NCBI RefSeq assembly: GCF_947496875.1
Contig: NZ_CANMEH010000006.1
Location: 124,001-188,000 of the forward strand
Reading direction: 5' to 3'
DNA length: 64,000 nt
Source: an uncultured Paracoccus sp.
Lineage (GTDB): Bacteria > Pseudomonadota > Alphaproteobacteria > Rhodobacterales > Rhodobacteraceae
Both the position numbers and the translations under genes were made by a program. The first letter of the stretch is position 1, and every line of letters begins with the position of its first letter. Shown here piece by piece: positions 18,959 through 34,130 of the stretch. The notes beneath the pieces were generated by a model that had not been told where the DNA came from, did no database searches, and saw only the letters and a program-made list of their open reading frames with translations.

Positions 18959-20017
18959 TCAGGTCCGGCCTTGCCCCATTTCCGTGACACCCGCGCCGAT
19001 CTCCTCCTCGAACCAGGCATAGGTCGCGGCCAGACCCTCGGGCAGCGACACGACCGGGTGCCAGCCCAGCAGCGACACGGCGCGGGTGATGTCCGGCTGG
19101 CGCCGGCGCGGATCGTCCACCGGCAGGGGGTGATGGACCACCCGCGCCCGCGACCCCGACAGGGCCAAGACTTGGTCTAGCAGCTCGTTCACCGTCATCT
19201 CGACCGGGTTGCCCAGGTTGACCGGCTCCATCCCCTCGAATTCCGCCTCCATCAGGGCCATCAGCCCCGCGACCAGATCCGAGACGTAGCAGAAGCTGCG
19301 GGTCTGGCTGCCGTCGCCATAGATCGTCAGTTCGTCGCCCCGCAGCGCCTGGCAGATCAGGTTCGACACCACGCGACCGTCTGCCGGGTCCATGTTCGGT
19401 CCGTAGGTGTTGAAGATGCGGGCCACCCGCACCTCGGCCCGGCCGGCGCGGGCGTAGTCGAAGGTCAGGCTTTCGGCCGCGCGCTTGCCTTCGTCGTAGC
19501 AGGCGCGGGGGCCCGTGCAGCTGACGCTGCCCCGGTAACCTTCGGCCTGCGGATGGATCTCCGGATCGCCATAGACCTCGGAGGTCGAGGTCAGCAGGAA
19601 CCTTGCCCCGGCCGCCTCGGCCAGCCGCAGCAGATGGTTCGTGCCCACGACATTGGTCAGCATCGTGTGTTCGGGATCGCGCTGATACAGCGGCGGCGAC
19701 GCCGCGCAGGCAAGATTGTAGACGCGGGCGATGCGTGGCGCGTCGCCCAGCAGGTCCGGCGGCAGCGGATTGACAATATCCCAATGCAGGAAATCGAACC
19801 TGGGATGCCCCTGCAGGGCATGCAGGTTGGATGGGCGGGCGGTCTGCATGTTGTCGATGCACAGGACCGCATCGCCCCGGTCCAGCAGCGCGCGGCACAG
19901 ATGCGATCCGATGAAGCCTGCGCCGCCGGCAACGACCGTCAGGCGGCCGGTGTCCCGCGCCCGCCGATCCGTGTCCCGCCGTACCGGCAGCGGGGTGATC
20001 CGCCTTGACGTGGTCAT
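18959..20017 (-). CDS. uxs: UDP-glucuronate decarboxylase (UDP-xylose synthase)
   Basis: This extended short-chain dehydrogenase converts UDP-glucuronate to UDP-xylose with tightly bound NAD+. It has 352 residues. Visible are GGAGFIGSH near residue 30, the diagnostic TSTSEVYGDPEIHPQ segment, and GPRACYDEGKR with the catalytic Tyr173-Lys177. That CYDEGKR form is typical of UXS rather than of UDP-glucose 4-epimerases. The N-terminus has about 28 basic residues before the fold. The ATG overlaps the upstream CgeB-like gene by 4 bases, making it the last gene of a seven-gene operon. With ugd across the gap the route UDP-glucose to UDP-xylose is complete. Confidence 0.9.
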   Translation of the reverse strand: MTTSRRITPLPVRRDTDRRARDTGRLTVVAGGAGFIGSHLCRALLDRGDAVLCIDNMQTARPSNLHALQGHPRFDFLHWDIVNPLPPDLLGDAPRIARVYNLACAASPPLYQRDPEHTMLTNVVGTNHLLRLAEAAGARFLLTSTSEVYGDPEIHPQAEGYRGSVSCTGPRACYDEGKRAAESLTFDYARAGRAEVRVARIFNTYGPNMDPADGRVVSNLICQALRGDELTIYGDGSQTRSFCYVSDLVAGLMALMEAEFEGMEPVNLGNPVEMTVNELLDQVLALSGSRARVVHHPLPVDDPRRRQPDITRAVSLLGWHPVVSLPEGLAATYAWFEEEIGAGVTEMGQGRT

Positions 20018-21126
20018 CGCGCGTCTCCCCTTGCCAGTTGCCGGGCGCTTGCTTGTGCTGACGTGGCGCCCACCGAGGGCCGATCGGCGGCTTCGTGCAG
20101 GTAAGCCTCCAGCTCCGCGGCCCGGTGATCGGCGGAATGTGCCGCCTCGATCCGTGCGCGCGCGGCGCGGCCCATCGGCGCCGCGTCGCCATCCAGTGCC
20201 GCAAGGACATCATCGGCGGTATCGGCCAGAACGATCTCTCGCCCCGGCGCGAACAGCGTGTCGATCCCGTCCCAGCGGTCGGAGATGATCGGGGTGGCGC
20301 AGGCGGCCGCCTCGAACAGCCGGACCGACGGCGACCAGCCGGCGCGGATCATGTCGGCACGGGTAACGTTCAGGGTGAAGCGGCTGGCGGAATAGAACGC
20401 TGCGTGATCGGCGGGCGGGCAATGGTCGATCCGCTCGACATTCGCGGGCCAGCCGATGCTGGCCGGGTATTGCGGGCCGGCCACGACGAAGCGCAGGTCG
20501 GGTCTGCGCCGCGCCGGTTCCAGCAGCAGCCGGTCCAGCGTCTGCTGGCGGTCGTCGCTGTAGGTGCCCAGATAGGACAGATCCCAGCGCAGCGGCACGT
20601 CGCGTGGACCGTACAGGTCCAGATCGACCGAACAGTACAGCGCCCGTGCCGCAACCGCGCCAAAGCGCGCCTCGATCTGGCGCAGCGTCGGGCCGCCGGT
20701 GAATGACAGGTAAAGGTCGAAATGCGGGATCACGTCCGGCGACAGATACGCGAAATCGCCGCGCTCCAGCTTGGCCAGCGTCACCGGGGTGTCGATGTCG
20801 TAGAACGCGGTGGCGCCGCGGGCCCAGCCTTGCACGCGGCGGGCGACCTCGACGCCGTCGGGCACGTAGGAGCCGATCATGACCGCGTCGGCGGCCGCGA
20901 TCTGCGGGCGCCAGCGCTCCAGATCCGCCAGGTCCGCATAGAAGGCCAGCCGGCACCAGTCGGGATCGACCAGATCGCGCTGGCTGGCGTACCAGGGCAC
21001 GTCACGTTCGAGAAACAGCACCCCGTGGCCGCGGCGCGCGAAGGACTTGAGCAGCGCCCGAAACGTCGTCGCATGGCCGTTCCCCCAGGACGAGGACAGG
21101 CTGAGACCAAGCACCACCAGCTTCAT
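20014..21126 (-). CDS. CgeB-like glycosyltransferase (third of three)
   Basis: This is a 370-residue GT-B-fold protein. The N-terminus MKLVVLGLSLSSSWGNGHATTFRAL is the family's first Rossmann strand plus glycine/asparagine loop. DAVMIGSYVPDG and DTPVTL follow in the N-domain. The C-domain carries LSYLGTYSDDRQQTLDRL and FEAAACATPIISDRWDGIDTLFAPGREI, the CgeB-type donor-site region with a conserved glutamate. A much longer open frame upstream is a shadow of the neighbouring gene: the ATG at 21126 overlaps its stop by 4 bases. It presumably transfers a sugar in the glycan assembled by this operon. Donor and acceptor are unknown. Confidence 0.82.
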   Translation of the reverse strand: MKLVVLGLSLSSSWGNGHATTFRALLKSFARRGHGVLFLERDVPWYASQRDLVDPDWCRLAFYADLADLERWRPQIAAADAVMIGSYVPDGVEVARRVQGWARGATAFYDIDTPVTLAKLERGDFAYLSPDVIPHFDLYLSFTGGPTLRQIEARFGAVAARALYCSVDLDLYGPRDVPLRWDLSYLGTYSDDRQQTLDRLLLEPARRRPDLRFVVAGPQYPASIGWPANVERIDHCPPADHAAFYSASRFTLNVTRADMIRAGWSPSVRLFEAAACATPIISDRWDGIDTLFAPGREIVLADTADDVLAALDGDAAPMGRAARARIEAAHSADHRAAELEAYLHEAADRPSVGATSAQASARQLARGDAR

Positions 21127-22205
21127 GCCTGCACCCCGCGCGACTGGGCCCTGAACAGCGCATCGACCTGCGCGCCGCGCAGGGCATAGGTATGTTCCGT
21201 CTTGACCCGCGCCAGCGCGGCCTGGCCGATCGCCTGCGCGCGCTCCGGCGTCAGCGCCCCGAGGTGGTCGGCCACGTCCTGCCCGTCGCGCGCGACCAAG
21301 ACCTCCTCGCCAGGGGTCAGGAACAGCTCGATCCCCTCCCACGCGTCGGTGATCAGGCAGGCGGCGGCCCCGGCGGCCTCGAACACGCGGGTCGCGGGCG
21401 AAAAGCCGACATGGGCCATGCTGTCCCGTGCGACGTTCAGAACCGCCAAGGGCGTGCTGTTGAAGGCGTTGTGTTCGGCGGTGTAGACATGCCCCAGATG
21501 CCGGACGTTGCCGGGCATCTGCTTCGTTTCCCAGCCATTGCCGCCGATCAGGAACTGCCGGTCCGCCAGCAGCGCCGCGGGCCTCAGGAAGAACTCTTCG
21601 ACCCGCGCCTCGCGATCGGGCAGGCGATTGCCCAGGAACGCCAGATCGGCGGCAAAGCGGGGATCCGGCGGAACCGGATGGTGGGTGCTGGCGTCCAGCG
21701 CGTTGTAGACCGGCTCGCAGTGGCGGGCGCCGAATGCCGTGTAGGCCTCGACCACCGGCGGGCCGCCCCCGTAGGTCAGCACCATGTCCAGGTCCGGCAG
21801 GGCCTGACGGACCGGATGATCGGGCGCGCTGCGCATCTCGTCCAGCGTGGCCGCGGCGTCCACGTCCCAGAAGACCTTGAGCGCATCGGGACGGGCGCCG
21901 GCGATGGCGCCTTCCAGCAGCTCGCGGTCGAAGATCCCGACGCCGTTTGCCTTGACCACGATGTCCGCGTCCGCCGCCTCGGCCAGCACGCCCCGCATCG
22001 CCGCCTCGGTCGCCGGATAGACGACCGATCGGCACCAGTCGGGCGGGTCGATGTCGCGATGCTTCTGCCGGTCGAAGGCGTCGGGTTCGTAGAAGGTGAT
22101 GTCATGGCCGCGCCGGGCCAGTTCGCCCAGGATGCCGCGGTAATAGGTGGCCGCGCCGTTCCAGTAGGACGACACCAGACTGGACCCGTAGAATGCGATC
22201 TTCAT
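21123..22205 (-). CDS. CgeB-like glycosyltransferase (second of three)
   Basis: This 360-residue protein is homologous in layout to its two neighbours. It begins MKIAFYGSSLVSSYWNGAATYYRGIL, has DALKVFWDVDAAATL in the N-domain, ADLAFLGNRLPDREARVEEFF at the domain boundary, and FEAAGAAACLITDAWEGIELFLTPGEEVLVA in the C-domain, the last being a very typical CgeB/GT signature. The ATG at 22205 overlaps the preceding gene by 4 bases and the stop overlaps the next start by 4, so all three copies are translationally coupled. The three differ enough that recent duplication is unlikely. The sugar specificity is unknown. Confidence 0.84.
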   Translation of the reverse strand: MKIAFYGSSLVSSYWNGAATYYRGILGELARRGHDITFYEPDAFDRQKHRDIDPPDWCRSVVYPATEAAMRGVLAEAADADIVVKANGVGIFDRELLEGAIAGARPDALKVFWDVDAAATLDEMRSAPDHPVRQALPDLDMVLTYGGGPPVVEAYTAFGARHCEPVYNALDASTHHPVPPDPRFAADLAFLGNRLPDREARVEEFFLRPAALLADRQFLIGGNGWETKQMPGNVRHLGHVYTAEHNAFNSTPLAVLNVARDSMAHVGFSPATRVFEAAGAAACLITDAWEGIELFLTPGEEVLVARDGQDVADHLGALTPERAQAIGQAALARVKTEHTYALRGAQVDALFRAQSRGVQA

Positions 22206-23314
22206 GCCGCCGACTCCTTGGTATCCTGCAGCCCCAGCGTTGCCGCGACCTGCAGGAGTTCCCTGGCGCGATGCGCGCAGGTGTGACGGGTGCGGACCGT
22301 ATCCAGGCCGCTGGCGACCAGGGCTGCCCGCAGATCCGGATCGGCAGCAACGGCGCGCAGATGGGCCGTCATCTGCTCGCCGTCGGCGGCGAACAGGAAA
22401 TCCTGCCCGGGCCGGAACAGGCCCTCGCTGTCCTGCCAGGGGGCCGACACCAGCGGGATGCCGCAGGCCAGCGCCTCGAACACCCGGATGGTGGGAATGC
22501 CGGGCAGCAGCGTCTTGTAGAACCGCCGCGGGACATGCACGGTGGCGAGATGCCGGGCGAAGATTTCGGGCGCAGCGGCATTCGGCGCCCAGCCGTGATA
22601 GCGCACGCCGTAGCGCTGCAGCGTGGCCAGCGCCTCGGTGGGATAGCGGACCCCGTGGATGTCCAGCGGCAGGCCGGCATCGCGGACCGGGCGGAACAGG
22701 AACTCCTCCAGCTCGACAGTCCGTTCGCCGTCCCCCCAGTTGCCGATCCAGACCAGCCCGTCGCGCCGGGGATCGTCGGCCGGGGGCCGGAACAGCCGCG
22801 TGTCGGCGGCCTCGTGCCAGACCCACACGCGGTCCCCCCAGCCCCAGCGGCGATAGACGCGGGCCAGCGTCTCGCCAAAGGCCAGCACGCCGTCGAAGCC
22901 GGACAGGTCGAAGGCGCGGATCGCATCCGGGTCGCTGACGGCACGGTGGTGGGTGTCATGGAACAGCAGCCTGAAGGTCGCGCCTGCACCGCGCGCCGCG
23001 CCCAGCCGGGCGGCCAAGCCGGGGTCGTTCCATTCGTGCACGATGACCAGATTCGCGTCCCCGGCCAGTTCCACGGGGTCGGCGTCGGGTTCGTAGACGT
23101 CGACCGTCAGTTCCGGGTAATGCGTCCGAAACGCCGTCAGCCCGGCCTCGCCGTGATCCCGCAGCAGGTTCTCCAGGCTCCACGACCCCTTCGGTTCCAG
23201 CGCACGGACGTCATGACCCAGCGCCGCCAGTTCCCGCAGGACGCCGCGCAGGAAATGCGCGTTCCCGTGGTTCCAGCAGGACTGCAGCGAGTGGGTGAAA
23301 TAGGTGATCTTCAT
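22202..23314 (-). CDS. CgeB-like glycosyltransferase (first of three)
   Basis: This is a 370-residue glycosyltransferase-fold protein. It begins MKITYFTHSLQSCWNHGNAHFLRGVL, with the N-domain element NLVIVHEWNDPGLAARLG, LVWIGNWGDGERTVELEEFLF at the domain junction, and FEALACGIPLVSAPWQDSEGLFRPGQDFLFA as the donor-binding segment. The ATG at 23314 was chosen because it begins the first beta strand; 14 upstream in-frame residues would overlap the GT4 gene end. It lies 10 bases after the GT4 gene. HDTHHRAVSDPD (a His-rich loop near residue 130) is not seen in the two paralogues and may reflect a different acceptor. Confidence 0.84.
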   Translation of the reverse strand: MKITYFTHSLQSCWNHGNAHFLRGVLRELAALGHDVRALEPKGSWSLENLLRDHGEAGLTAFRTHYPELTVDVYEPDADPVELAGDANLVIVHEWNDPGLAARLGAARGAGATFRLLFHDTHHRAVSDPDAIRAFDLSGFDGVLAFGETLARVYRRWGWGDRVWVWHEAADTRLFRPPADDPRRDGLVWIGNWGDGERTVELEEFLFRPVRDAGLPLDIHGVRYPTEALATLQRYGVRYHGWAPNAAAPEIFARHLATVHVPRRFYKTLLPGIPTIRVFEALACGIPLVSAPWQDSEGLFRPGQDFLFAADGEQMTAHLRAVAADPDLRAALVASGLDTVRTRHTCAHRARELLQVAATLGLQDTKESAA

Positions 23315-23324
23315 GGGGTTCCCG

Positions 23325-24416
23325 TCATGCCGCGCGGGTGCCGGCGGCGCGCGCATCGGCGTAGATCGCCGTCATCGCGGCGGCCATCGCGGCAGGCGTG
23401 TAGCGGGCAGCCCGAGCGCGCGCGGCCTGACCCCGGGCTTCGCGCGCTGCGGAATCGGCCAGCAGCCCGGTGATGGCCGCGGCAAATGCGTCCGGATCGT
23501 CCGGGTTCCCAAACAGCGCGGCACCGTCCCACAGTTCCCGGAAGGTGGCGATGTCCGACAGCACCAGCGGGCAGCCCGCCTGCGCCGCTTCCAGCACGGC
23601 CAGGCCGAACGGTTCGAACCGGGCGGCGCTGACGAAGACGGGGCGCCGCGCCAGCCAGCCGGCGAGATCGGCGGCCGGCAGCGGACCGGTCAGCCGCAAG
23701 TGTTCGGCCCTGACGACCGCACCATGCGGGGCCCGGGTTGCCCCGATCGCCACGAAGGGCGCGTCGATTCGCGCGGCCACCTGGTCCAGCACGGACGTGT
23801 TCTTGACCTCGTCCCACAGGCGGCCGGCCGTCAGCGCACCCGCAAGCGGCACCGCGTCCCGCGGCTGCGGCAGCGGCAGGGGCGTCCGGCCGTTGTGCAC
23901 GGCAACCGGGCGGACGGGCAGGGCATAGCGGCGGGCGATCTCGTCGGCATAGGCGCGGGTGGGTGCGACGACGCGATCGGCGACGCGCAGGCCGCGCCCG
24001 ACCAGCTCCGGCAACCAGCCCAGCGCCGGATCGACGGGCCCCTTGCCGGCGGCGTCCCACCATGTGCCCAGGCAGCCGTGGTTCATCGCCACCACGGGGG
24101 TGGCAAACCCGCCGCCCGCGGCCAGGGCGGGGGTGTTCAGATGCACCACCTCGGCGCCGATGTCGGCGGCCAGGCGGGCGACGGCGCGGCCAGCATCCAG
24201 CACCGGGCCGGGACCCTCGGCCAGCCAGTCCAGCGGCAGCCCGGTTTCGACCAGCCGCAGCCCCGGCACCCGAGCGGCCGCCGCGCGCTGGTCCGCGTCG
24301 GGCGAGGGCCCCAGCAGCGCCAGCGTGACCTGAACACCGTCGAGCGCGCCGGCGAGTTCCAGCGCATACTGCCAGACTCCGCCCACCGCGTCCGAGGTCA
24401 TCAGCACCCGCGTCAC
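23325..24416 (-). CDS. Glycosyltransferase family 4 protein
   Basis: This is a 363-residue retaining GT-B glycosyltransferase. The N-domain begins VTRVLMTSDAVGGVWQYALELAGAL (starch-synthase-like GGVW loop) and contains VVHLNTPALAAGG and VAMNHGCLGTWW. The C-domain has ALTAGRLWDEVKN (donor-site lysine region) and FVSAARFEPFGLAVLEAAQAGCPLVLSD, the canonical EPFGLxxLEA box with both catalytic-site glutamates. The start is GTG at 24416, overlapping the upstream epimerase stop by 4 bases (GTGA). Upstream in-frame residues are rejected because they read through that gene. It probably adds a sugar made by the two epimerases. Confidence 0.88.
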   Translation of the reverse strand: MTRVLMTSDAVGGVWQYALELAGALDGVQVTLALLGPSPDADQRAAAARVPGLRLVETGLPLDWLAEGPGPVLDAGRAVARLAADIGAEVVHLNTPALAAGGGFATPVVAMNHGCLGTWWDAAGKGPVDPALGWLPELVGRGLRVADRVVAPTRAYADEIARRYALPVRPVAVHNGRTPLPLPQPRDAVPLAGALTAGRLWDEVKNTSVLDQVAARIDAPFVAIGATRAPHGAVVRAEHLRLTGPLPAADLAGWLARRPVFVSAARFEPFGLAVLEAAQAGCPLVLSDIATFRELWDGAALFGNPDDPDAFAAAITGLLADSAAREARGQAARARAARYTPAAMAAAMTAIYADARAAGTRAA

Positions 24417-25528
24417 GCCGACTGGGCCAGCCGGGGCCTGCGGTCGACCGGCAGGGCGATCCCGCCCTCGGCCGCGAGCCATTGCGCCAGACGCGCCACG
24501 CCGTCCTGCCAGGGAACCTTGGGCCCAAGCCCCAGCGCCGCGTCGGCCGCCCGGGTGTCGGCCACGAAATAGCGCTGGTCGCCGGCCCGCCAGTCGGCAA
24601 ACCCGATATCCACGGGTCGGCCGATGATCTGGCCGACGAAATCCAGCAACTGCCGCAGGCTGACGGCGTTCTGCGGCCCGCCGCCCAGGTTGAACGCGCG
24701 CCCCGAAACGCTGTCGATGTGCCGCCAGGCGGCAAGATAGGTCTCGACAGCGTTCGAGACGTCCAGGATGTCCCTAACCTGACAGCCGTCGCCGAACAGG
24801 GTGATCGGCTGACCCTTCAGCGCCCGGATCAGGAAATGCGCGACCCAGCCCTGATCCTCGGTGCCCATCTGGCGCTGGCCATAGATGCAGCTCATCCGCA
24901 GCACGGCGGTGGGGATGTCGTAGCTGCGGGCATAGTCCAGCACGTACTGGTCGGCGGCCCCCTTGGAACAGCCATAGGGCGTGTGGAAATCCAGCGGACG
25001 GCTTTCCCCGATGCCATGCGCGCGCACCCGGGGATCGGTTGGGCGATAGGCGTCGCCTTCAAGGGCGAAGTCCAGATCGGCCAGATCCCCATAGACCTTG
25101 TTGGTCGAGGCAAGGATCAGCGGCGTGCGTCCGTCGCCGGTGCGCAGCGCCTCCAGCAGGTTGACGGTCCCGATCAGGTTCACGGCCAGGTCGGCCACCG
25201 GGTCCACGAGGCTGGTGGTCACGGCCACCTGCGCGGCCAGGTGGAACACCACCTTGGCACCCGACGCCGCGTCGGCCAGCCGGTCGGCATCGCGGATGTC
25301 GGCGTGCAGGTGCCGGATCAGGTCGCCGTGGCGGGTCTGCAGCCATGCCAGGTTGCGTTCAACGCCGGCCCGGCTCATCGCATCATAGACGATGACCTGG
25401 TGCCCGTCCCTCGCCAGCCGGTCGGCCAGGTTCGATCCGATGAACCCGGCGCCCCCGGTGACCAGCACCGGTCGCGGATCGGCCGCCGGGTCGGTGCGGT
25501 CCCCTGACGCTTGCCCGGTCCCGCTCAC
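24413..25528 (-). CDS. NAD-dependent sugar-nucleotide epimerase, CDP-paratose 2-epimerase-like
   Basis: This extended SDR has 371 residues. It shows GGAGFIGSN near residue 24, LASTNKVYGDL with the catalytic-region Ser/Thr, and TPYGCSKGAADQYVLDYAR with the Tyr-x3-Lys pair. RMSCIYGQRQMGTEDQGWVAHF is characteristic of the RfbE/CDP-paratose-2-epimerase-like branch, where the NTP-sugar is bound. The true nucleotide (CDP or UDP) and sugar cannot be set from sequence. Start and stop both overlap neighbours by 4 bases. It supplies a modified sugar nucleotide to the glycosyltransferases downstream in the operon. Confidence 0.85.
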   Translation of the reverse strand: MSGTGQASGDRTDPAADPRPVLVTGGAGFIGSNLADRLARDGHQVIVYDAMSRAGVERNLAWLQTRHGDLIRHLHADIRDADRLADAASGAKVVFHLAAQVAVTTSLVDPVADLAVNLIGTVNLLEALRTGDGRTPLILASTNKVYGDLADLDFALEGDAYRPTDPRVRAHGIGESRPLDFHTPYGCSKGAADQYVLDYARSYDIPTAVLRMSCIYGQRQMGTEDQGWVAHFLIRALKGQPITLFGDGCQVRDILDVSNAVETYLAAWRHIDSVSGRAFNLGGGPQNAVSLRQLLDFVGQIIGRPVDIGFADWRAGDQRYFVADTRAADAALGLGPKVPWQDGVARLAQWLAAEGGIALPVDRRPRLAQSA

Positions 25529-26640
25529 GCCACCAGACCCCGCTTGTCCAGCTCGGCCCGCGCCTGTTCGACGCGGTCGACCGCCGTCTGACTGGCCACC
25601 CAGTCGGCCAGTTCGGCAAGCCCAGCGCGGAAATCCGTCTGCGCGGCAAAGCCCAGCCGGTCGGCAGCCAGCGCGGTGTCGCAGAAGCAGTGCCGGATGT
25701 CGCCGATCCGGGCCTTGCCCACGATCTGCGGGTCCAGGTCGTTGCGCCCCATGGCCCGCCCCAGTTCGCGCGCGACTTCGGTCACCGACCGGTCATGACC
25801 CGACCCGATGTTGAACGTGCCGCCGGCTGCCTGCGGCAGCGACAGCGCCTCGGCGAAGGCCCGCGCCACGTCCGACACGTGGACGAAATCGCGGCGCTGC
25901 CCGCCATCCTCGAAGATCATGGGGGCCTGGCCGTTCAGATAGCGCGAGGCAAAGATCGCCAGCACCCCGGTATACGGGTTGGACAGCGCCTGTCCGGGTC
26001 CGAACACGTTGAACAACCGCAGGCAGACGCCTTCGATCCCGTAGGGCGCAGACATAATGTGCGTGGTGCGCTCCTGCACGAACTTGTTGAGCGCATAGAT
26101 CGAGGCCAGGTTCGGGCGCTTCCATTCGGGGGTCGCGACCGGCGTGAGGGGACGGCCCTGTGCGTCGGTGGGGTCCCAGTTCTTGAGCCCGTCGCGAATG
26201 CCGACCCGCTCGGCATCCTCGACCAGGTTGCCGTCGGCGTCCTTGTACAGCCCCTCGCCATAGATCGACATCGAGGATGCGGTGACCACCCGCCGCACCG
26301 GATTGTCGATCAGCTTCTCGAACAGGACCGCGGTGCCCACGTCGTTGGTCGAGGTATAGCGCTCGACCTCGTACATCGATTGACCGACACCCACCTCGGC
26401 GGCCAGGTGGACGACGCTGTCGACGCCCTGCAGCGCGCGTGCCACCGCGTCGCCGTCGCGCACATCGGCGTGGATGAACTCGGCCTCCGCATTCAGGCTG
26501 TCGGGCCGCGTCGTCGCATCGCCATGGACCTGCGGGATCAGCGCGTCCAGCACCCGGACCTTGTGTCCGCGCCGCAGCAGCTCGTCCGTAACAAAGCGAC
26601 CGATGAAGCCGGCGCCCCCGGTAATCAGAACCTGTTCCAA
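25525..26640 (-). CDS. NAD-dependent sugar-nucleotide epimerase, dTDP-L-rhamnose 4-epimerase-like
   Basis: This 371-residue extended SDR is the first gene of the minus-strand operon. It has GGAGFIGRF at the N-terminus, ASSMSIYGEG, and RPNLASIYALNKFVQER with the Tyr-x3-Lys pair. The insertion around residues 120-150 and the KRPNLASIYALNK wording resemble dTDP-L-rhamnose 4-epimerases and related enzymes. The start codon is TTG at 26640, preceded by GAGGG; no other in-frame start keeps the Rossmann motif. A promoter-like sequence lies immediately upstream. No rml genes are in the window, so the dTDP-sugar would have to be made elsewhere, or the enzyme uses another nucleotide sugar. Confidence 0.83.
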   Translation of the reverse strand: MEQVLITGGAGFIGRFVTDELLRRGHKVRVLDALIPQVHGDATTRPDSLNAEAEFIHADVRDGDAVARALQGVDSVVHLAAEVGVGQSMYEVERYTSTNDVGTAVLFEKLIDNPVRRVVTASSMSIYGEGLYKDADGNLVEDAERVGIRDGLKNWDPTDAQGRPLTPVATPEWKRPNLASIYALNKFVQERTTHIMSAPYGIEGVCLRLFNVFGPGQALSNPYTGVLAIFASRYLNGQAPMIFEDGGQRRDFVHVSDVARAFAEALSLPQAAGGTFNIGSGHDRSVTEVARELGRAMGRNDLDPQIVGKARIGDIRHCFCDTALAADRLGFAAQTDFRAGLAELADWVASQTAVDRVEQARAELDKRGLVA

Positions 26641-26680: not shown

Positions 26681-26779
26681 AGCAGTTCGGGTATGGTTTT
26701 AACCACTCATGTCCGCGCAGTTCCAGCCCCAGCTTCTTCTTCTTGATCTTTGCTGCGCAATCCGTGGCCGCAGGCGGGC

Positions 26780-27397
26780 ATGAGCCGACGGATCGGGCTG
26801 GTGCGGCACGGGGCGCATGACGAGCTGGGCCGGGTGCTGAGCGGACGGGCGACCGACGTGGCGCTGAACGCTGCCGGTCGGGACGAGGCCGCAGTCCTGG
26901 GACGCGCGCTGAGCAAGGGTTGCGGTCAGGATGCTGGCGCGATCGGGGCCATCCACGCCAGTCCGCAGCGGCGCACGCGCGAAACGGCCGGGATCCTCGG
27001 CGAGACACTTGGCGTGGTCCCGCAGGTCGATCCCGCGCTGGACGAGGTGGATTTCGGCCGCTGGGCGGGACAGGGCTTTGCCGCACTGGACAGCGATCCC
27101 GACTGGCAGGAATGGAACCGGCGGCGGGCATCCGCGCCCAGCCCCGGGGGCGAGACGATGCAGGCGGCGACGCTGCGCGCGGCGCGGCGCCTTGACACCC
27201 TCGCGGCAGAGGCGGGCGGCGGCGCCGCGCTGCTGTGCGTCAGCCATTGCGACATCATCCGCGGGGTGATCGCCCATTACCTACGCCTGAGCCTCGATCA
27301 CATCCTGCGGTTCTCGATCGATCCCGGTCGGGTGTCGTGGCTGGACGTCGATGGACAGGGCGGCGCCCAGGTTCTAAGCGTTAACGCCCGAAACTGA
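26780..27397 (+). CDS. Histidine phosphatase family protein
   Basis: This is a 205-residue phosphoglycerate-mutase-like phosphatase. The catalytic RHG lies at residues 9-11 (GLVRHGAHDE), followed by HASPQRRTRETA, the acidic ALDEVDFGRWAG segment, and the second histidine in CVSHCDIIRG. All residues of the branch-1 phosphatase site are present. I start at MSRRIG (26780) with CAGGCGGG upstream; an ATG-type extension to 26750 has no family support. It opens the plus-strand operon that also encodes inositol-phosphate synthase, so dephosphorylation of inositol-1-phosphate or of a sugar phosphate is a reasonable but unproven role. Confidence 0.86.
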   Translation: MSRRIGLVRHGAHDELGRVLSGRATDVALNAAGRDEAAVLGRALSKGCGQDAGAIGAIHASPQRRTRETAGILGETLGVVPQVDPALDEVDFGRWAGQGFAALDSDPDWQEWNRRRASAPSPGGETMQAATLRAARRLDTLAAEAGGGAALLCVSHCDIIRGVIAHYLRLSLDHILRFSIDPGRVSWLDVDGQGGAQVLSVNARN

Positions 27398-27404
27398 CGG
27401 ACCC

Positions 27405-28184
27405 ATGATGGCAGACACAGAAGTGCAGCAGGACGTCGCGCGGCTTGGCCCGTGGTTCCACAATCTGGACCTGAACGGGGTGCGGACCGCCCCGGACCAT
27501 TTCCTGGGCGACTATCCCACCGACAAGTTCCGCCGCTTCGCCGACCTGCTGCCCGCCGACCTGACCGGCCGCAGCGTGCTGGACATCGGTTGCAACGCCG
27601 GGTTCTACAGCCTGGAAATGAAGCGGCGCGGGGCGGCGCGGGTGGTCGGCATCGACAGTGACGACCGCTATCTGGCCCAGGCGCGCTTTGCCGCGGACAC
27701 GCTGGGCGTGACCGGGATCGAGTTCCGCAACCTGTCGATCTATGACGTCGCGGCACTGGGCGAACGCTTCGATCTGGTGATCTTCATGGGCGTCCTCTAC
27801 CACCTGCGCCATCCGCTGCTGGCGCTGGACCTGATCCGTGAACATGTGGCCGCCGACCTGATGCTGTTCCAGACGCTGACCCGCGGCCCGGACAGCGTGG
27901 CCGAGGTGGCCCCCGACTACGACTTTGCCGACGACGCGCATTTCCAGGACCCGTCCTATCCCCGCATTGCATTCGTCGAGCGGGCCTGGGCCAGTGACTG
28001 GACGAACTGGTGGGTGCCCAATCGCGCCGGGGTCGAGGCGCTGCTGCGCGCCTCGGGCTTCGTGATCGAGGACGGACCGCGCGACGAGGTGTATCTGTGC
28101 CGCATCGGCCCCGTGCCCTATGCGCAACACGGCCCGGTGACGGTCTATCCCGCCCGGGCGCCGGAAGGAGACGCAGCCCGATGA
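27405..28184 (+). CDS. CmoB-like SAM-dependent methyltransferase (TIGR04290 type)
   Basis: This is a class I methyltransferase of 259 residues. It shows motif I VLDIGCNAGFYSLEMKRRGA near residues 58-77, the acidic motif-II residue in VVGIDSDDRY, and MGVLYHLRHPLLAL, the CmoB-like post-motif. The N-terminal WFHNLDLNGVRTAPDHFLGDYP also resembles tRNA-U34 carboxymethyltransferase relatives. I assign it to the family I know as TIGR04290, whose members sit in sugar gene clusters. A small-molecule or glycan acceptor is therefore likelier than tRNA. Its stop overlaps the glycoside hydrolase start by 4 bases. Confidence 0.8.
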   Translation: MMADTEVQQDVARLGPWFHNLDLNGVRTAPDHFLGDYPTDKFRRFADLLPADLTGRSVLDIGCNAGFYSLEMKRRGAARVVGIDSDDRYLAQARFAADTLGVTGIEFRNLSIYDVAALGERFDLVIFMGVLYHLRHPLLALDLIREHVAADLMLFQTLTRGPDSVAEVAPDYDFADDAHFQDPSYPRIAFVERAWASDWTNWWVPNRAGVEALLRASGFVIEDGPRDEVYLCRIGPVPYAQHGPVTVYPARAPEGDAAR

Positions 28185-29113
28185 TCGAAGCCGCGATGAT
28201 CTGGAACGAACCGAACAACAAGTCGCACTGGGACCCCGAGCTGGACCCCGACTGGTCCCGCTATGGCGAATGCGTGACCCTTGCGGGGCAGGCGATCCGG
28301 CGGGTCAATCCGGCGATCACCCGGGTTCTGGGCGGCATGTCGCCCATCGATCCGCTGTGGGTGCAGCGGATGGAGGCGCATGGCGCGCTGGACCATGTCG
28401 ACGCGGTCGCCGTGCACGGCTTTCCGCTGGACTGGAACCTGTGGCCGATCCACGACTGGCCGGCCAAGCTGGACGAGATCGCGGCGGTCACCGACAAGCC
28501 CGTCTGGGTGACGGAGGTCGGCGTCGGCAGCTTTGGCGCCGAAGAGGTGCAGGTGTTCGGCGTCGAACGGACGGCGGCGCTGCTGATCGGGCGGGCGCCG
28601 CGGATCTTCTGGTATTCGCTGTTCGATCTGCCGCAGGAATGGGGCGCCACCACGCGCCACCGCGAGGCCGAGGGGTCGTCCTATTACCGGCATTTCTACA
28701 TGGGCCTGATCCGCGCCGACGGCACCCCGAAACCGGGTCTGGACGCCTATGCCCCGCATGCGGACCGGATGGGGCTGATGCAGTGGTTCCACTATCAGGA
28801 CCCGCGGCTGGACGATGCCGTGGCTTGGATGAAGCGGCTTGGCGTGCGCCACCTGCGCACCGGGCTCTCCTGGGCCGACAGCTTTCGCCCCGATGCGCTG
28901 GGCTGGTTCGACCGGCAGATGGAGGCGCTGGCCGATTTCGACACCACCGTCACTTTCTGCTTTACCCCCGAACATCTGGGCCCGGGGGCGCATCACACCA
29001 GCCCGCCCCACGATCCGCAGCAATTCGCCGATTTCTGCGCCGCGATGATCGACCGCTATGCGGCGGCCGGATCGTCTCCCGCCCCATCCGCGCCCCAGCC
29101 CGCCCTGACCTGA
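28181..29113 (+). CDS. Glycoside hydrolase, clan GH-A (GH39-like), apparently circularly permuted
   Basis: This 310-residue cytoplasmic protein (no signal peptide) starts almost at the catalytic acid/base: MIWNEPN puts Glu at residue 10. The nucleophile-type glutamate is in WVTEVGVG at 112, and the last-strand-like IFWYSLFDL follows near 145. The segments that normally form strands 1-3 of the barrel come afterwards: VRHLRTGLSWAD near 222, TVTFCFTPEHLG near 255, and a PPHDPQQFADFCAAMIDRYA-type helix that in GH39/GH-A enzymes directly precedes WNEPN. The C-terminus is Ala/Ser/Pro-rich. The start is fixed by the ATGA overlap with the methyltransferase gene. It could cleave or transglycosylate a glycoside made by this locus. 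Confidence 0.75.
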   Translation: MIEAAMIWNEPNNKSHWDPELDPDWSRYGECVTLAGQAIRRVNPAITRVLGGMSPIDPLWVQRMEAHGALDHVDAVAVHGFPLDWNLWPIHDWPAKLDEIAAVTDKPVWVTEVGVGSFGAEEVQVFGVERTAALLIGRAPRIFWYSLFDLPQEWGATTRHREAEGSSYYRHFYMGLIRADGTPKPGLDAYAPHADRMGLMQWFHYQDPRLDDAVAWMKRLGVRHLRTGLSWADSFRPDALGWFDRQMEALADFDTTVTFCFTPEHLGPGAHHTSPPHDPQQFADFCAAMIDRYAAAGSSPAPSAPQPALT

Positions 29114-29128
29114 CCTGAAGGCCATTCG

Positions 29129-30280
29129 ATGACCGACCAGCGTTCCACCATCAACGTCGCCATCATCGGGGTGGGCAACTGCGCCAGTTCGCTGGTGCAG
29201 GGGCTGGCGCATTACAGCGGCCGCAACGACGCCGCCGGGCTGATGCACCACACGCTCGGCGGCTATCGCCCCGACGACATCCGGATCGTGGCCGCCTGGG
29301 ACATCGACGCCCGCAAGGTGGGCAGCGATGTGGCCCGGGCGATCTTCGCCCCGCCGAACTGCACCACCGTCTTTGCGCCCGACGTGCCGGACACCGGCGC
29401 CGTCGTGCGGATGGGCCGGGTGCTGGACGGGGTCGCCGACCACATGGCCGACCAGCCGGCCGAGCGGACCTTTGTCACCTCGGACGCCGCCGAGCCGACG
29501 CGCGCCGACGTGGTCGCGGCGCTGCGCGAGGCGCGGGTGGACGTGCTGGTGAACTACCTGCCGGTCGGCAGCCAGAAAGCGACCGAGTTCTACGCCGAAT
29601 GCGCGCTGGAGGCCGGCGTCGCCTTCGTGAACAACATCCCGGTGTTCATCGCGTCGGACCCGGTCTGGGCCAAGCGGTTCAGCAAGGCGGGCGTGCCGAT
29701 CATCGGCGACGACATCAAGGCCCAGATGGGCGCGACCATCGTTCACCGCGTCCTGACCGACCTGTTCCACAAGCGCGGCGTCAAGCTGTGCCGCACCTAT
29801 CAGCTGAACACCGGCGGCAACACGGATTTCCTGAACATGGCCAACCGGCGCCGGCTGGAAAGCAAGAAGATCTCCAAGACCGAGGCGGTCCAGTCGGTCG
29901 CGGCCGAGCGCCTGGCCGACGAGAACATCCATATCGGCCCGTCCGACTATGTCGCTTGGCAGAACGACAACAAGGTCTGCTTCCTGCGGATGGAGGGCGA
30001 ACTGTTCGGCGGGGTTCCGATGAACCTCGAACTGCGCCTGTCGGTCGAGGACAGCCCGAATTCCGCCGGCGTGGCCATCGACATGATCCGTTGCGCCGCA
30101 ATCGCCCGGGATCGGGGCCTTGCCGGGCCGGTGCTGGCGCCCTCGGCCTATTTCTGCAAGCACCCGCCGCGGCAGATGACCGACGATGCAGCCCACGACG
30201 CGGTCGAGGCGTTCATCGCCAAGGCGCCCGCGGCGTCCGGGGCGCTGCTGGAACCGGCGGATGCCGTGACCGGATCGTGA
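29129..30280 (+). CDS. ino1: Myo-inositol-1-phosphate synthase
   Basis: This enzyme makes 1D-myo-inositol 3-phosphate (L-myo-inositol 1-phosphate) from glucose 6-phosphate with bound NAD+. It has 383 residues, like the short bacterial/archaeal form rather than the 500-residue eukaryotic one. Visible are GVGNCASSLVQG at the N-terminus (NAD site), DIKAQMGATIVHRVL, and TYQLNTGGNTDFLNM with the catalytic-region lysines in SKKISKTEAV. The SDYVAWQNDNKVCF segment is also typical. In an alphaproteobacterium, inositol synthesis beside glycosyltransferases suggests an inositol-containing glycolipid or glycan. It follows the hydrolase gene after 15 bases. Confidence 0.92.
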   Translation: MTDQRSTINVAIIGVGNCASSLVQGLAHYSGRNDAAGLMHHTLGGYRPDDIRIVAAWDIDARKVGSDVARAIFAPPNCTTVFAPDVPDTGAVVRMGRVLDGVADHMADQPAERTFVTSDAAEPTRADVVAALREARVDVLVNYLPVGSQKATEFYAECALEAGVAFVNNIPVFIASDPVWAKRFSKAGVPIIGDDIKAQMGATIVHRVLTDLFHKRGVKLCRTYQLNTGGNTDFLNMANRRRLESKKISKTEAVQSVAAERLADENIHIGPSDYVAWQNDNKVCFLRMEGELFGGVPMNLELRLSVEDSPNSAGVAIDMIRCAAIARDRGLAGPVLAPSAYFCKHPPRQMTDDAAHDAVEAFIAKAPAASGALLEPADAVTGS

Positions 30281-30305
30281 CCGGTCCAGCCAGGGGAACA
30301 TGATC

Positions 30306-31271
30306 ATGAGCCAGACCATGCAGGCCGCGGTGCTGCGCGGCCCGGAGCAGATCGAGATGACGACGGTGCCGGTGCCGCAGCCCGGTCCGGGCGAGGTGCT
30401 GATCCGCCTGGAAGGCTGCGGAATCTGCGCCTCGAACGTGGAGCCGTGGCAGGGCCAGCCCTGGTCCACCTGGCCGGGCGCCCCGGGGGGGATGGGGCAC
30501 GAGGCCTGGGGGCGAATCGCTGCGGTGGGGGATCGCGTGACCGGGCTGTCCGTGGGCGACCGGGTCACCGCGCTGACCGAGCGGTCCTACGCCGAATATG
30601 ATCTCGCCCCGGCCGATCAGGTCGTCCCGCTGCCGGAGGCGCTGGCCGGCCAGCCGGTGCCGGGCGAGCCGGTGGCCTGCGCGATGAACATCTTCGCCCG
30701 TTCCGATATCCACCCGGGCCAGACCGTCGCGATCATCGGCATCGGCTTTCTGGGGGCGATCCTGACCCGGCTGGCCAGCGACGCCGGCGCGCGTGTGGTG
30801 GCGATCTCTCGGCGGCGCAGCTCGCTTGACCTCGCCCGATCGCTGGGCGCGGCCGAGGTCATCGTCATGGATGACCACGCGCGCATCATCGAGACGGTCA
30901 GTGCGCTCACCGGGGGCCGGATGGCCGAACGGGTAATCGAGTGCGTGGGCCGGCAGTGGCCGCTGGACCTGGCCGGCGAGCTGGTCGCCGAGGGCGGCCG
31001 GCTGGTCATCGCCGGCTATCACCAGGACGGCCCGCGCCAAGTCAACATGCAGATGTGGAACTGGAAGGGGATCGACATCGTCAGTGCCCATGAACGCGAT
31101 CTGCAGGTCCGGATGGCGGGTCTTCGCGCGGCGGTGGATGCGATCGCCACCGGAAAACTGGACCTCGCGCCGCTGCTGACCGGAAGCTATCCGCTGGACC
31201 GGCTGGGCGACGCGCTGGCCGCGACCCGCGACAAGCCGGGCGGCTTCGTCAAGGCTTGGATCGCGCTGTGA
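30306..31271 (+). CDS. MDR-superfamily dehydrogenase lacking the structural zinc lobe
   Basis: This NAD(P)-dependent alcohol/polyol-type dehydrogenase has 321 residues. The catalytic zinc-type residues are present as Cys41 (CGICAS) and His65-Glu66 (GHEAWG). The four-cysteine structural zinc loop between the halves is absent, which explains the short length. The Rossmann motif is IGIGFLGAI. I chose the ATG at 30306 because GGGGA lies 8 bases upstream; another at 30300 is too close. It sits between ino1 and a Gfo/Idh/MocA gene and shares a GTGA overlap with the latter. Oxidation of an inositol or sugar hydroxyl is a plausible role. Confidence 0.84.
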   Translation: MSQTMQAAVLRGPEQIEMTTVPVPQPGPGEVLIRLEGCGICASNVEPWQGQPWSTWPGAPGGMGHEAWGRIAAVGDRVTGLSVGDRVTALTERSYAEYDLAPADQVVPLPEALAGQPVPGEPVACAMNIFARSDIHPGQTVAIIGIGFLGAILTRLASDAGARVVAISRRRSSLDLARSLGAAEVIVMDDHARIIETVSALTGGRMAERVIECVGRQWPLDLAGELVAEGGRLVIAGYHQDGPRQVNMQMWNWKGIDIVSAHERDLQVRMAGLRAAVDAIATGKLDLAPLLTGSYPLDRLGDALAATRDKPGGFVKAWIAL

Positions 31272-32266
31272 CGCGCCCGTTAAGGCCCCGCCTGGGGTTC
31301 CTGGGTACGGGATGGATCGGGCGGCACCGGATGGCCGCGATGGCCGGCACGGACCTGGCCGACATCGTTGCGGTGGCCGAGCCGGATGATGCCGCGGCGG
31401 CCGAGGCGCTGCAGCTTGCCCCCGCCGCGCGGCGGGTCGACGGTCTGGACGCGCTGCTGGACGCGGGTGTCGACGGGGTGGTGATCGCCACCCCCAGCGC
31501 CGCCCATGCCGCGCAGTCGACGGCCGCGCTGAGCGCCGGCAAGGCGGTGTTCTGCCAGAAGCCGCTGGGCCGGAGTGCCGCCGAGGTCGCGGCCGTGGTG
31601 GAGGCGGCGGCCTGCGCCGATCGCCTGCTGGGGGTCGATCTGTCCTATCGCCACACGGCCGGGATGACGGCCATTCGCGACCTGCTGGCGCAGGGGGCGC
31701 TGGGGCACGTCTTCGGCGTCGATCTGCTGTTTCACAATGCCTGGGGGCCGGACAAGCCGTGGTTCTACGACCCGGCGCTGTCTGGGGGCGGCTGCGTCGC
31801 CGATCTGGGCGTGCACATGGTCGACATGGCCCTGTGGGCCCTGGACTGGCCAGAGGTCACCGGCGTGCAGAGCCGGCTGTTCGCCAAGGGCGCCCCCCTG
31901 GCCGATCCCGACCGGCAGGTCGAGGATTATGCCGTCGCGACCCTCGACCTGGCCGGCGGCACCGTCGTGCGGCTGGGCTGTTCCTGGGGCCTACAGGCCG
32001 GCCGGCCGGCGGTCATCGGGGCCGAGTTCTTCGGCGCCGAGGGCGGTGCCAGCCTGCGCAATGTCGACGGATCGTTCTACGACCTGATTGCCGCCCGTCA
32101 TCACCACACGCAGGAAGAACCGCTGTCGTCCCTGCCCGACGAGTGGGGCGGCCGTGCGGCGGTGGACTGGCTGGCACGCCTGGCGCAGGGGGCGGGCCAT
32201 GATCCCCGATCCGATCGGCTGGTGACGGTCGCGCGGGTTCTGGACGCCATCTACGGGCGCGCGTGA
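31268..32266 (+). CDS. Gfo/Idh/MocA family oxidoreductase
   Basis: This is a 332-residue NAD(P)-dependent sugar or inositol dehydrogenase-type protein. It has the N-terminal GFLGTGWIGRHR dinucleotide motif, FCQKPLGRSA with the catalytic lysine of the EKP-like motif (here QKP), and GGGCVADLGVHMVDMALWAL, where the D-x3-H pair typical of inositol dehydrogenases is visible. The start is GTG at 31268, overlapping the previous stop by 4 bases. The family includes myo-inositol 2-dehydrogenase, so with ino1 and the MDR enzyme upstream an oxidised inositol (inosose) could be made. This is inference from family and context. Confidence 0.87.
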   Translation: MTRPLRPRLGFLGTGWIGRHRMAAMAGTDLADIVAVAEPDDAAAAEALQLAPAARRVDGLDALLDAGVDGVVIATPSAAHAAQSTAALSAGKAVFCQKPLGRSAAEVAAVVEAAACADRLLGVDLSYRHTAGMTAIRDLLAQGALGHVFGVDLLFHNAWGPDKPWFYDPALSGGGCVADLGVHMVDMALWALDWPEVTGVQSRLFAKGAPLADPDRQVEDYAVATLDLAGGTVVRLGCSWGLQAGRPAVIGAEFFGAEGGASLRNVDGSFYDLIAARHHHTQEEPLSSLPDEWGGRAAVDWLARLAQGAGHDPRSDRLVTVARVLDAIYGRA

Positions 32267-32354: not shown

Positions 32355-32855
32355 TCAGCTTGCCTGCCGGTTCAGGCGGGCTTCGGCCACCTTCGTCAGC
32401 TTCTGGTCCGCGGCGTACTCCTCGTCCAGGTTCTGCTTCAGAAGCGCGGCGGCATCGTTGCGACCCAGCTCCTGTGACCACGCGATCAGCGTGCCGTAGC
32501 GGCTGATCTCGTAATGCTCGACCGCTTGGGCCGACGCGGCCAGAGCGGCATCCAGAGCCGACTTGTCGTCGATGTCGCCCGCGATCGAGTTCGCTTCCTC
32601 GATCAGGCCGTCGATCGCCGGGCAGTCGGTGCCCTTGGGGCTGAGCCCCAGCATGCCGAACACCTGGTCCAGACGGCTGATGTGGTTCTCGCTCTCGACA
32701 CGGTGCTGCTCGAACCCCTGCCGCAGCGTCGGGTCGGTCGCCATCGTGCTCATCTTGGTCAGCGCGGTGACGATCTGGTTTTCTGCGTAGTAGATGTCCT
32801 GCAACGTGTGCACGTACAGGTCTTCAAGCGTGCTCATGTTCTGGAAAAGGGCCAT
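32355..32855 (-). CDS. Ferritin-like protein of the YciE/YciF (DUF892) family
   Basis: This 166-residue all-helical protein has a four-helix bundle pattern. STLEDLYVHTLQDIYYAENQIV opens helix 1, with Glu residues at metal-ligand spacing. HRVESENHISRLDQVF carries the E-x2-H-type element, and SAQAVEHYEISRYGTLIAWSQELG the second E/H pair. A clear AGGAGA ribosome site precedes the ATG at 32855. Members of the family are induced in general stress. It interrupts the sugar gene island and reads against its neighbours. A perfect 8-bp dyad lies about 55-80 bases upstream of the start. Confidence 0.9.
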   Translation of the reverse strand: MALFQNMSTLEDLYVHTLQDIYYAENQIVTALTKMSTMATDPTLRQGFEQHRVESENHISRLDQVFGMLGLSPKGTDCPAIDGLIEEANSIAGDIDDKSALDAALAASAQAVEHYEISRYGTLIAWSQELGRNDAAALLKQNLDEEYAADQKLTKVAEARLNRQAS

Positions 32856-33083: not shown

Positions 33084-34130
33084 ATGCGCGTCGGCGTGCT
33101 GACCTTTCACCGCTGCATCAACTACGGGTCGTACTGGCAGGCACGCTGTCTGGTGCAGGGCATCGCCGCGCGCGGCCATGAGGCGGTCCTGCTGGACCAC
33201 CGGTCCTGCGCGGTCACCTCGCGGGAATGGCGCTATGCGTTCCAGCCGCTGTTGCCCGACCGCAGCGGCCGGGCCGACATCCGCCGCTATGGCGTCAAGC
33301 TGCGGCGGTTCCTGGATGCGTTCCGCGACCTGCCGCTGTCGCACCCCTTCGATCTGGACGACCGGAACGGGGCGCCGCCGGCGGATCTGGTGGTGATCGG
33401 CAGCGACGAGGTGCTGAACCTCAGCCATCCTTGGTACGGCGGCAAGCCGATCTTCTGGGGAGAGGGGCTGCGGGCGCCGCGCCGGGTGACCTACGCGGCC
33501 AGTTGCGGCAATTATGACGCGCAGGTCGGCCTCGCGCCCGAGTGGCGGGCGGCGCTGGCCGGGCTGGACGCGGTGTCGGTGCGCGACCAGAACACCCGCA
33601 CCCTGGTGGCGACCGCCACCGGGCAGGAGCCTGAGATGGTGCTGGACCCGGTGCTGCAATTCCCGCCCGCGGTGCGGCCGGCGGAGGAAGGCGCGCCCTA
33701 TCTGCTGGTCTATGGCCATCACATCCCCGACTGGTTCGCGGATCGGGTGCAGGCCGAGGCAAGGCGCCGCGGCTGGCGGATGATCAGCGTCGGCTATCGC
33801 AACGACTGGGCCGACGAGCAGCGGCTCGAGGCCGGTCCGCTGGAGTTCGCGGCCCTGGTCGCCGGGGCCAGCGGCATGGCGACCACCTATTTCCACGGCT
33901 GCGTCTTTGCGCTGGTCAACGGCGTGCCGCTGGTCTGCGCGCCGTCCGATTACCGGTGGAACAAGCTGCGCGACCTGACGGCGCTGCTGGGACTTGACCG
34001 GCAGCTGACCTTTGCCGATCGCGATCCGGCCGAGATTGCGGCCGCGCTGGATGCCCCGGCCGACGTACAGGCACGGCTGGCGGCGCTGCGCGCCCAGTCC
34101 GACGCCTATCTGGACCGGGTGCTGGCATGA
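33084..34130 (+). CDS. Polysaccharide pyruvyl transferase family protein (WcaK/CsaB-like)
   Basis: This 348-residue protein has the family's GT-B-like layout. RVGVLTFHRCINYGSYWQARCLV is the N-terminal strand with the NYGxxLQ-type loop (here NYGSYWQ). ADLVVIGSDEVLNL is the conserved GSDxxxN element, AVSVRDQNTRTLV the typical SVR(D/E) box, and GASGMATTYFHGCVFALVNGVPLV the C-terminal T(x)4HG signature. Such enzymes attach pyruvate ketals to sugars of surface polysaccharides. The start at 33084 has GAAGGA upstream. It overlaps the following FrhB-like gene by 4 bases, a pairing often seen in exopolysaccharide loci. Confidence 0.86.
   Translation: MRVGVLTFHRCINYGSYWQARCLVQGIAARGHEAVLLDHRSCAVTSREWRYAFQPLLPDRSGRADIRRYGVKLRRFLDAFRDLPLSHPFDLDDRNGAPPADLVVIGSDEVLNLSHPWYGGKPIFWGEGLRAPRRVTYAASCGNYDAQVGLAPEWRAALAGLDAVSVRDQNTRTLVATATGQEPEMVLDPVLQFPPAVRPAEEGAPYLLVYGHHIPDWFADRVQAEARRRGWRMISVGYRNDWADEQRLEAGPLEFAALVAGASGMATTYFHGCVFALVNGVPLVCAPSDYRWNKLRDLTALLGLDRQLTFADRDPAEIAAALDAPADVQARLAALRAQSDAYLDRVLA

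Follow-up and report, generated by a model that had tools for sequence, protein, structure and literature searches.

The locus analysed here raises the question of whether a glycosidase barrel of clan GH-A can exist in nature in circularly permuted form, with the strands that normally close the barrel placed at the beginning of the chain. Strands of clan GH-A barrels run from b1 to b8 from the N-terminus, the acid/base Glu follows an Asn at the end of b4 (NEP motif), the nucleophile Glu lies at the end of b7, and hydrolysis is retaining. The window, by which we mean the whole 64,000-nucleotide stretch of an uncultured Paracoccus sp. that was analysed, encodes a 310-residue protein (here pGH) whose N-terminus reads MIEAAMIWNEPNNKSHWD. 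The earlier note on this DNA had placed an open reading frame at 28181-29113, with WNEPN at residues 8-12 and a nucleophile-type motif at residue 112; coordinates and motifs were as claimed (W8-N9-E10-P11-N12 and W109-V110-T111-E112-V113-G114).

The gene lies in a cluster of NAD-dependent epimerases/dehydratases, glycosyltransferases, a TIGR04290 methyltransferase and a myo-inositol-1-phosphate synthase (Table 1), with two more PF13524 matches in frames 20014-22035 and 21123-22826. The same note was right to assign the gene, with ino1 and a TIGR04290 methyltransferase as neighbours, to a specialised glycan cluster, and the cluster recurs in other Alphaproteobacteria. Other genes were observed around it: a DUF892 protein adjoins the cluster (window 32355-32855), as one does, together with a manganese catalase, in a Sphingobium locus (L022), neighbours hinting at a stress-response setting; a polysaccharide pyruvyl transferase family gene is located downstream (window 33084-34130), and in Sinorhizobium and Ensifer a member of this family adjoins the permuted gene.

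Table 1 Features of the pGH locus (window positions), with strand and the basis of each assignment.
Feature	Position	Strand	Basis
UDP-glucuronate decarboxylase-like SDR (UXS)	18959..20017	-	PF01370; 55% identity to Bradyrhizobium protein so annotated
Glycosyltransferase	22202..23356	-	PF13524
GT4-type glycosyltransferase	23325..24482	-	PF13439/PF13692
NAD-dependent epimerase/dehydratase SDR2	24413..25528	-	PF01370; homologue elsewhere fused to canonical-order GH barrel
NAD-dependent epimerase/dehydratase SDR1	25525..26640	-	PF01370
Histidine phosphatase superfamily protein (HPP)	26750..27397	+	PF00300
TIGR04290 family methyltransferase	27405..28184	+	365 bits, cut-off 300; 4-base overlap with pGH
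pGH, circularly permuted GH-A-type glycosidase, 310 aa	28181..29113	+	Profile, AlphaFold2, homologous loci
pGH residues 1-190, equivalent to canonical b4-b8	28181..28750	+	HMM 111-287 on residues 6-184; five DSSP strands
Glu10 (WNEPN), predicted acid/base	28208..28210	+	Same residue in 81/81 rows
Glu112 (WVTEVG), predicted nucleophile	28514..28516	+	Same residue in 81/81 rows
pGH residues 195-294, equivalent to canonical b1-b3 plus helices	28763..29062	+	HMM 3-104; three DSSP strands
Variable C-terminal tail of pGH, past conserved RY (292-293)	29063..29110	+	Alignment, homologue C-termini
Myo-inositol-1-phosphate synthase (INO1)	29129..30280	+	PF01658
Zinc-binding dehydrogenase	30300..31271	+	PF00107/PF08240
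Gfo/Idh/MocA oxidoreductase	31256..32266	+	PF01408/PF22725

The start position of pGH corresponds to an initiator codon in all 80 homologous loci compared, the best 80 of at least 545 relatives (ATG in 40, GTG in 31 and TTG in 9), indicating that the start is genuine. An initiator was present one codon further upstream in three of these loci, and an in-frame stop lay no more than 10 codons upstream of the start in nine. The pGH ATG shares four bases with the stop of the upstream methyltransferase gene, an overlap by which the earlier note had taken the start to be fixed. The methyltransferase stop was located by script in 39 of the 80 loci, with a 4-base overlap in 37 and a gap in two. At the other end, conservation stops at the RY pair (residues 292-293), and the tail beyond it is variable both in the alignment (plus-strand rows; five minus-strand loci left out) and in the homologue C-termini. 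Residues E10, E112, W8, N9, P11, H79, W144 and R226 are invariant in the 81 rows that include the window protein. Values of dN/dS were low in each half of the gene: 0.09-0.17 (residues 1-190) and 0.02-0.09 (residues 191-293) against eight Paracoccus orthologues, and 0.16-0.30 and 0.19-0.23, respectively, against three Sphingomonas orthologues (L103 was left out of the set for an indel misalignment). Each half thus evolves under purifying selection, in a single reading frame.

The order of the motifs was compared with that of canonical-order relatives, which are the N-terminal domains of larger fusion proteins (see below). A HMM of 10 such relatives matched the native pGH as two domains in swapped order: HMM positions 111-287 on residues 6-184 (95 bits) and positions 3-104 on residues 195-294 (49 bits). 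Rotated in silico, pGH gave a single domain (HMM 5-287, 151 bits); the top score among 200 shuffles was 3.6 bits. Motifs in circularly permuted order, as the earlier note had described them, are thus borne out by the two-segment swap and by the single match after rotation. That note had also proposed looking for homologues sharing this order beside TIGR04290 methyltransferases, and with a six-row canonical alignment (A3) the swapped two-segment match was found in all 26 genomes with the permuted gene. E112 aligned to the Glu of the canonical WITEAG motif. Against the permuted profile, PslG, the best solved relative by sequence (PDB 4zn2, 5bx9), was matched in the same manner, with pGH residues 4-154 on PslG 133-302 and residues 201-296 on PslG 26-131, the second stretch at 4.7 bits, alone not significant. 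An hhalign comparison of alignments A2 and A3 reported the N-terminal segment only, with a probability of 99.8.

Curated family models recognised part of the protein. Pfam PF11790 (Glyco_hydro_cc) passed its gathering cut-off (25.1 bits, cut-off 21) with a match limited to residues 3-122 (profile 67-184 of 237; about 40% of the protein). GH39 (PF01229, 11.1 bits, cut-off 26) and GH53 (PF07745, 15.3 bits, cut-off 24) remained below their gathering cut-offs, scores of a kind that permuted order lowers. There were no GH13 or GH70 models among the Pfam matches at E 1 (Pfam search alone), and no family model for pGH in NCBIfam; of 37 pattern matches in viral contigs, none was a relative.

The AlphaFold2 model of pGH (45-row alignment; pLDDT 85.3, pTM 0.85) has eight strands with helices between them, assigned by DSSP to residues 2-7, 47-50, 75-79, 108-113, 142-145, 198-200, 224-228 and 254-259; by alignment these are b4-b8, followed by b1-b3. 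The junction of the two segments consists of a helix (185-193) and a four-residue turn leading into b1, and the final helix ends at residue 293. Confidence was low (pLDDT below 50) at residues 11-13, adjoining E10, and at residues 83-86 and 156-166. A VIA search of the PDB aligned TIM barrels over approximately residues 1-298 (Z 11.7-13.3), the 50 rows shown being TIM barrels other than GH-A enzymes; the top 50 Foldseek matches in the PDB mixed GH10, GH5 and GH128 entries with unrelated barrels, at TM-scores of at most 0.42 of the query, without a clear GH-A match. Both searches serve here solely as evidence for a full barrel, and a family absent from the entries shown is possible. The missing GH-A fold match presumably arises because a sequential alignment places b4 in register with b1. 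Taken together, the DSSP strands and the whole-barrel alignments suggest a single closed barrel, the absence of which the earlier note had named as the result that would speak against a permutation. Measured against clan GH-A, W8-N9-E10-P11 follows the first strand (canonical b4) and E112 lies within the fourth (both in 81/81 rows); the strand order departs from b1-b8, the barrel being homologous but permuted.

Natural permutation of a glycosidase barrel is already known for GH70 (clan GH-H). The accessible parts of PMC4919382 and PMC11046441 describe GH70 barrels running from a3-b4 to b8-a8-b1 to b3, explained by permutation per duplication, and the accessible part of PMC9732880 describes non-permuted GH70 enzymes. 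As far as these sources go, GH70 glucansucrases resemble pGH in being natural circular permutations of a glycoside hydrolase barrel with non-permuted relatives; they start at a3 and pGH at b4, so that the breaks lie one helix apart, and they differ in being alpha-glucan enzymes of clan GH-H with several added domains. MalS of E. coli (GH13 subfamily 19), with permuted domains in the order C-A-B-A-C according to the available part of PMC10223318, is likewise a natural permutation in a glycoside hydrolase but an alpha-amylase of another clan. Transaldolase, a permuted class I aldolase barrel in the portion available of PMC2213659, shares the natural TIM barrel permutation; its shift is two units (three in pGH) and these enzymes are not glycosidases. 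A permuted CE4 esterase is also described (PMC13366581, in part). Among the papers listed by our literature search (mostly without subscription papers), none described a natural barrel permutation in clan GH-A, none dealt with pGH and none named TIGR04290 or TIGR04295. The pGH permutation may have arisen along the route put forward for GH70, in which a gene is duplicated in tandem, the copies fuse and the ends are trimmed; no permutation intermediate was found.

The permuted pGH is a widespread alphaproteobacterial family. Nine of 61 relatives carried the gene, as did eight of 385 class genomes and 12 of 398 phylum genomes; each of these last 12 belongs to the window's own class, and four more phylum genomes gave weak partial matches only, to other glycosidases. 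It also matched 148 plasmid records (in 97 of them the match covered at least 80% of the query), 66 of the 148 being from Sinorhizobium, others from Azospirillum, Roseomonas and Paracoccus. The order of the segments was read in the best 80 of the at least 545 relatives of pGH. Canonical-order relatives are the N-terminal domain of proteins of approximately 700 residues whose C-terminal domain is a NAD-dependent epimerase, and the closest one forms the N-terminal part of a GH-SDR fusion encoded in a TIGR04290-methyltransferase cluster. These fusions, annotated 'NAD-dependent epimerase/dehydratase' (e.g. Rhizobium etli IE4803_PD00366), share with pGH a barrel homologous over its whole length (approximately 30-38% identity), the same Glu pair and the same partner genes (SDR1, SDR2 and GT4; mostly also the methyltransferase, UXS and a TIGR04295 radical SAM protein); they differ in the canonical b1-b8 order, in the fused SDR2 and in loci without INO1 and histidine phosphatase.

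The two forms showed a near-complementary distribution. Two samples were searched for TIGR04290, which occurs in 16 of the 385 class genomes and in 14 of the 396 phylum genomes, giving 27 different genomes: 16 carried the permuted form only, seven the fused form only, two both (G241, G384) and two neither (G173, and G107 with a contig that starts at SDR2). A rule that the two forms never share a genome was rejected, since both are present in 2 of 18 genomes and in five of five of genus g261 (including G384). Within the window's genus, the fused form occurs in one genome (G023) and the permuted form in 9 of 37. Of 17 loci with the permuted gene, counting that of the window, 16 have INO1 nearby; none of nine fused loci has it, and these nine are eight distinct loci, as L027 (Tistrella) and G296 apparently represent one replicon (equal length 692456); further loci gave 8 of 8 and 0 of 2, respectively. 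At E 1e-10 there was no INO1 match in any of the eight fused-form genomes; one genome with the permuted gene (G183) also gave no INO1 match, indicating that the link between permuted gene and inositol is not absolute. This genome carries a divergent permuted gene (L163; 63% identity) together with its methyltransferase, and its SDR1 and SDR2 are on another contig. As regards INO1 annotation in Sinorhizobium, pSymB of S. meliloti ml21 shows INO1 matches in two frames with no gene listed (L025:10234-11297), S. meliloti RCAM1115 has INO1 listed as inositol-3-phosphate synthase, and S. medicae has one full match.

The barrel tree grouped 24 permuted rows in one clade (support 96/97) and nine fused rows plus G823 in another (100/99); the two clades form a sister pair, together apart from six other relatives (100/97), and the permuted/fused label requires one change. 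These values come from the second barrel tree, which included G183 and G361 and omitted secr_L157 and secr_L158 (long branches; 'secr' label assigned by eye); in the first tree, without G183 and G361, the permuted clade was less well supported (86/88). The G823 protein (L278:8401-10446), which branches basally within the fused clade, is a canonical-order fused barrel, some of whose motifs (WFH, RTGVSWADWFRP) are nearer to the permuted family.

The fate of the fused barrel beside the permuted gene was seen most directly in genus g261, whose five genomes all carry both forms (family f51: matches in 39 of 82 genomes). The fused barrels of g261 scored 143-313 bits, compared with 401 (G823) and 516 (G852) in genomes with the fused form only; their WNEP motif is replaced by AAAP or AATP, so that the acid/base Glu is lost in all five, and the nucleophile is lost in four (G854 retains a Glu at that column). 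The permuted copies of g261 have both motifs intact (5/5) and lie apart from the SDR cluster, as members of an INO1-HPP-methyltransferase-pGH group. Among fused-only rows both Glu are retained in 11 of 11 (R. etli being one plasmid record). As the decayed barrels belong to one genus, they perhaps represent one event. G241 (L212:1-1400) combines the permuted gene with a fused GH-SDR2 fragment which begins at an intact nucleophile Glu, at the contig end.

The SDR2 tree placed SDR2 proteins that lack a GH barrel, and whose genome or plasmid carries the permuted gene, together with fused ones. Those of Sinorhizobium/Ensifer (four rows) are sister (96/94) to the fused proteins of G659 and R. etli; those of g295 (five rows) share with them a larger fork (99/98), which holds five fused SDR2 in all. 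The label needs five changes on this tree, at least four of them forced by starred branches; two changes suffice on the smaller SDR2 and methyltransferase trees, which are poorly resolved. We infer that the direction of these changes is barrel loss and not repeated fusion; repeated fusion could account for them instead, and transfer of SDR2 could blur the direction. The simplest reading is a single permutation with repeated exchange thereafter.

The rarity of coexistence, together with the decay or absence of the fused barrel beside the permuted gene in the lineages examined (G241 being a possible exception), strongly indicates that the permuted gene does the job done elsewhere by the canonical-order barrel fused to SDR2. 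Tentatively, and at somewhat less than even odds, a stand-alone copy, permuted once and arriving with INO1 and the phosphatase (often also the methyltransferase), would have taken the place of the fused barrel on several occasions; the fused barrel would then have been deleted (Sinorhizobium/Ensifer, g295) or left as a catalytically dead scaffold (g261), the pathway gaining an inositol-containing product. Alternatively, the permuted barrel performs a different step, with a specificity of its own that belongs to the inositol branch, and the fused barrel was lost for other reasons. The association of INO1 with the permuted form, its absence from the fused-form genomes at the threshold used and the low identity between the forms are all in keeping with such a division; the near-complementary distribution, the decay seen in fused barrels that coexist with the permuted gene and the common partners SDR1, SDR2, methyltransferase and GT argue against it, and we regard it as rather unlikely.

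As to the activity of the protein, we consider pGH to be a cytosolic, probably active, retaining glycosidase of clan GH-A type, with its barrel permuted between helix a3 and b4 (probability roughly 0.85). A cytosolic location is expected because the chain starts with b4, leaving no room for a signal peptide. Hydrolysis would proceed by two-step double displacement, with E10 as acid/base and E112 as nucleophile. The substrate may be a cytosolic glycoside intermediate built by the glycosyltransferases of the cluster from UDP-xylose- and inositol-related precursors, on which pGH would trim or transfer a sugar; the name 'beta-xylosidase' on some pGH records is an annotation. PslG of Pseudomonas aeruginosa, encoded in the Psl cluster, is a retaining endo-beta-glucosidase according to the accessible part of PMC11912335. 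Like pGH it has the WNEPN and nucleophile motifs and is encoded in a polysaccharide biosynthesis cluster, and unlike pGH it has the canonical order in a 416-residue chain of low similarity (29 bits). pGH, whose setting is comparable, is probably a glycosidase or transglycosidase of the retaining type that acts on an intermediate of the pathway. A permuted barrel without catalysis, working as a carbohydrate-binding or scaffolding protein, is improbable: the retention of dead fused barrels as open frames in g261 indicates that non-catalytic barrels are tolerated in this pathway, but there the decayed copy is the fused one, and in pGH both Glu and the six other invariant residues are conserved in every row.

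The circular permutation itself is supported by the agreement of the sequence, the predicted eight-strand barrel, the conserved start, end and catalytic residues and the one-clade tree, and pGH is accordingly described as a naturally permuted GH-A-type barrel, b4-b8 followed by b1-b3. An unpermuted protein, namely a b4-b8 part barrel followed by a domain of other origin, or the product of a truncated gene whose start was mis-called, would fit the restriction of the Pfam and hhalign matches to the N-terminal part and the insignificant second PslG stretch, but it is very hard to reconcile with the canonical b1-b3 match of residues 195-294 (likewise in all 26 genomes), the initiator codon in all 80 loci and a C-terminal part constrained as strongly as the N-terminal one.

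Beyond what the earlier note had described, the permuted barrel is a widespread family, and its canonical-order counterpart is fused to an SDR in the same type of cluster. The family offers an entry point to the glycan pathway marked by TIGR04290 and TIGR04295. As both orders are alive in one cluster type, as a sister pair and with natural losses of the old copy, the costs and benefits of a permutation are directly testable in these bacteria.
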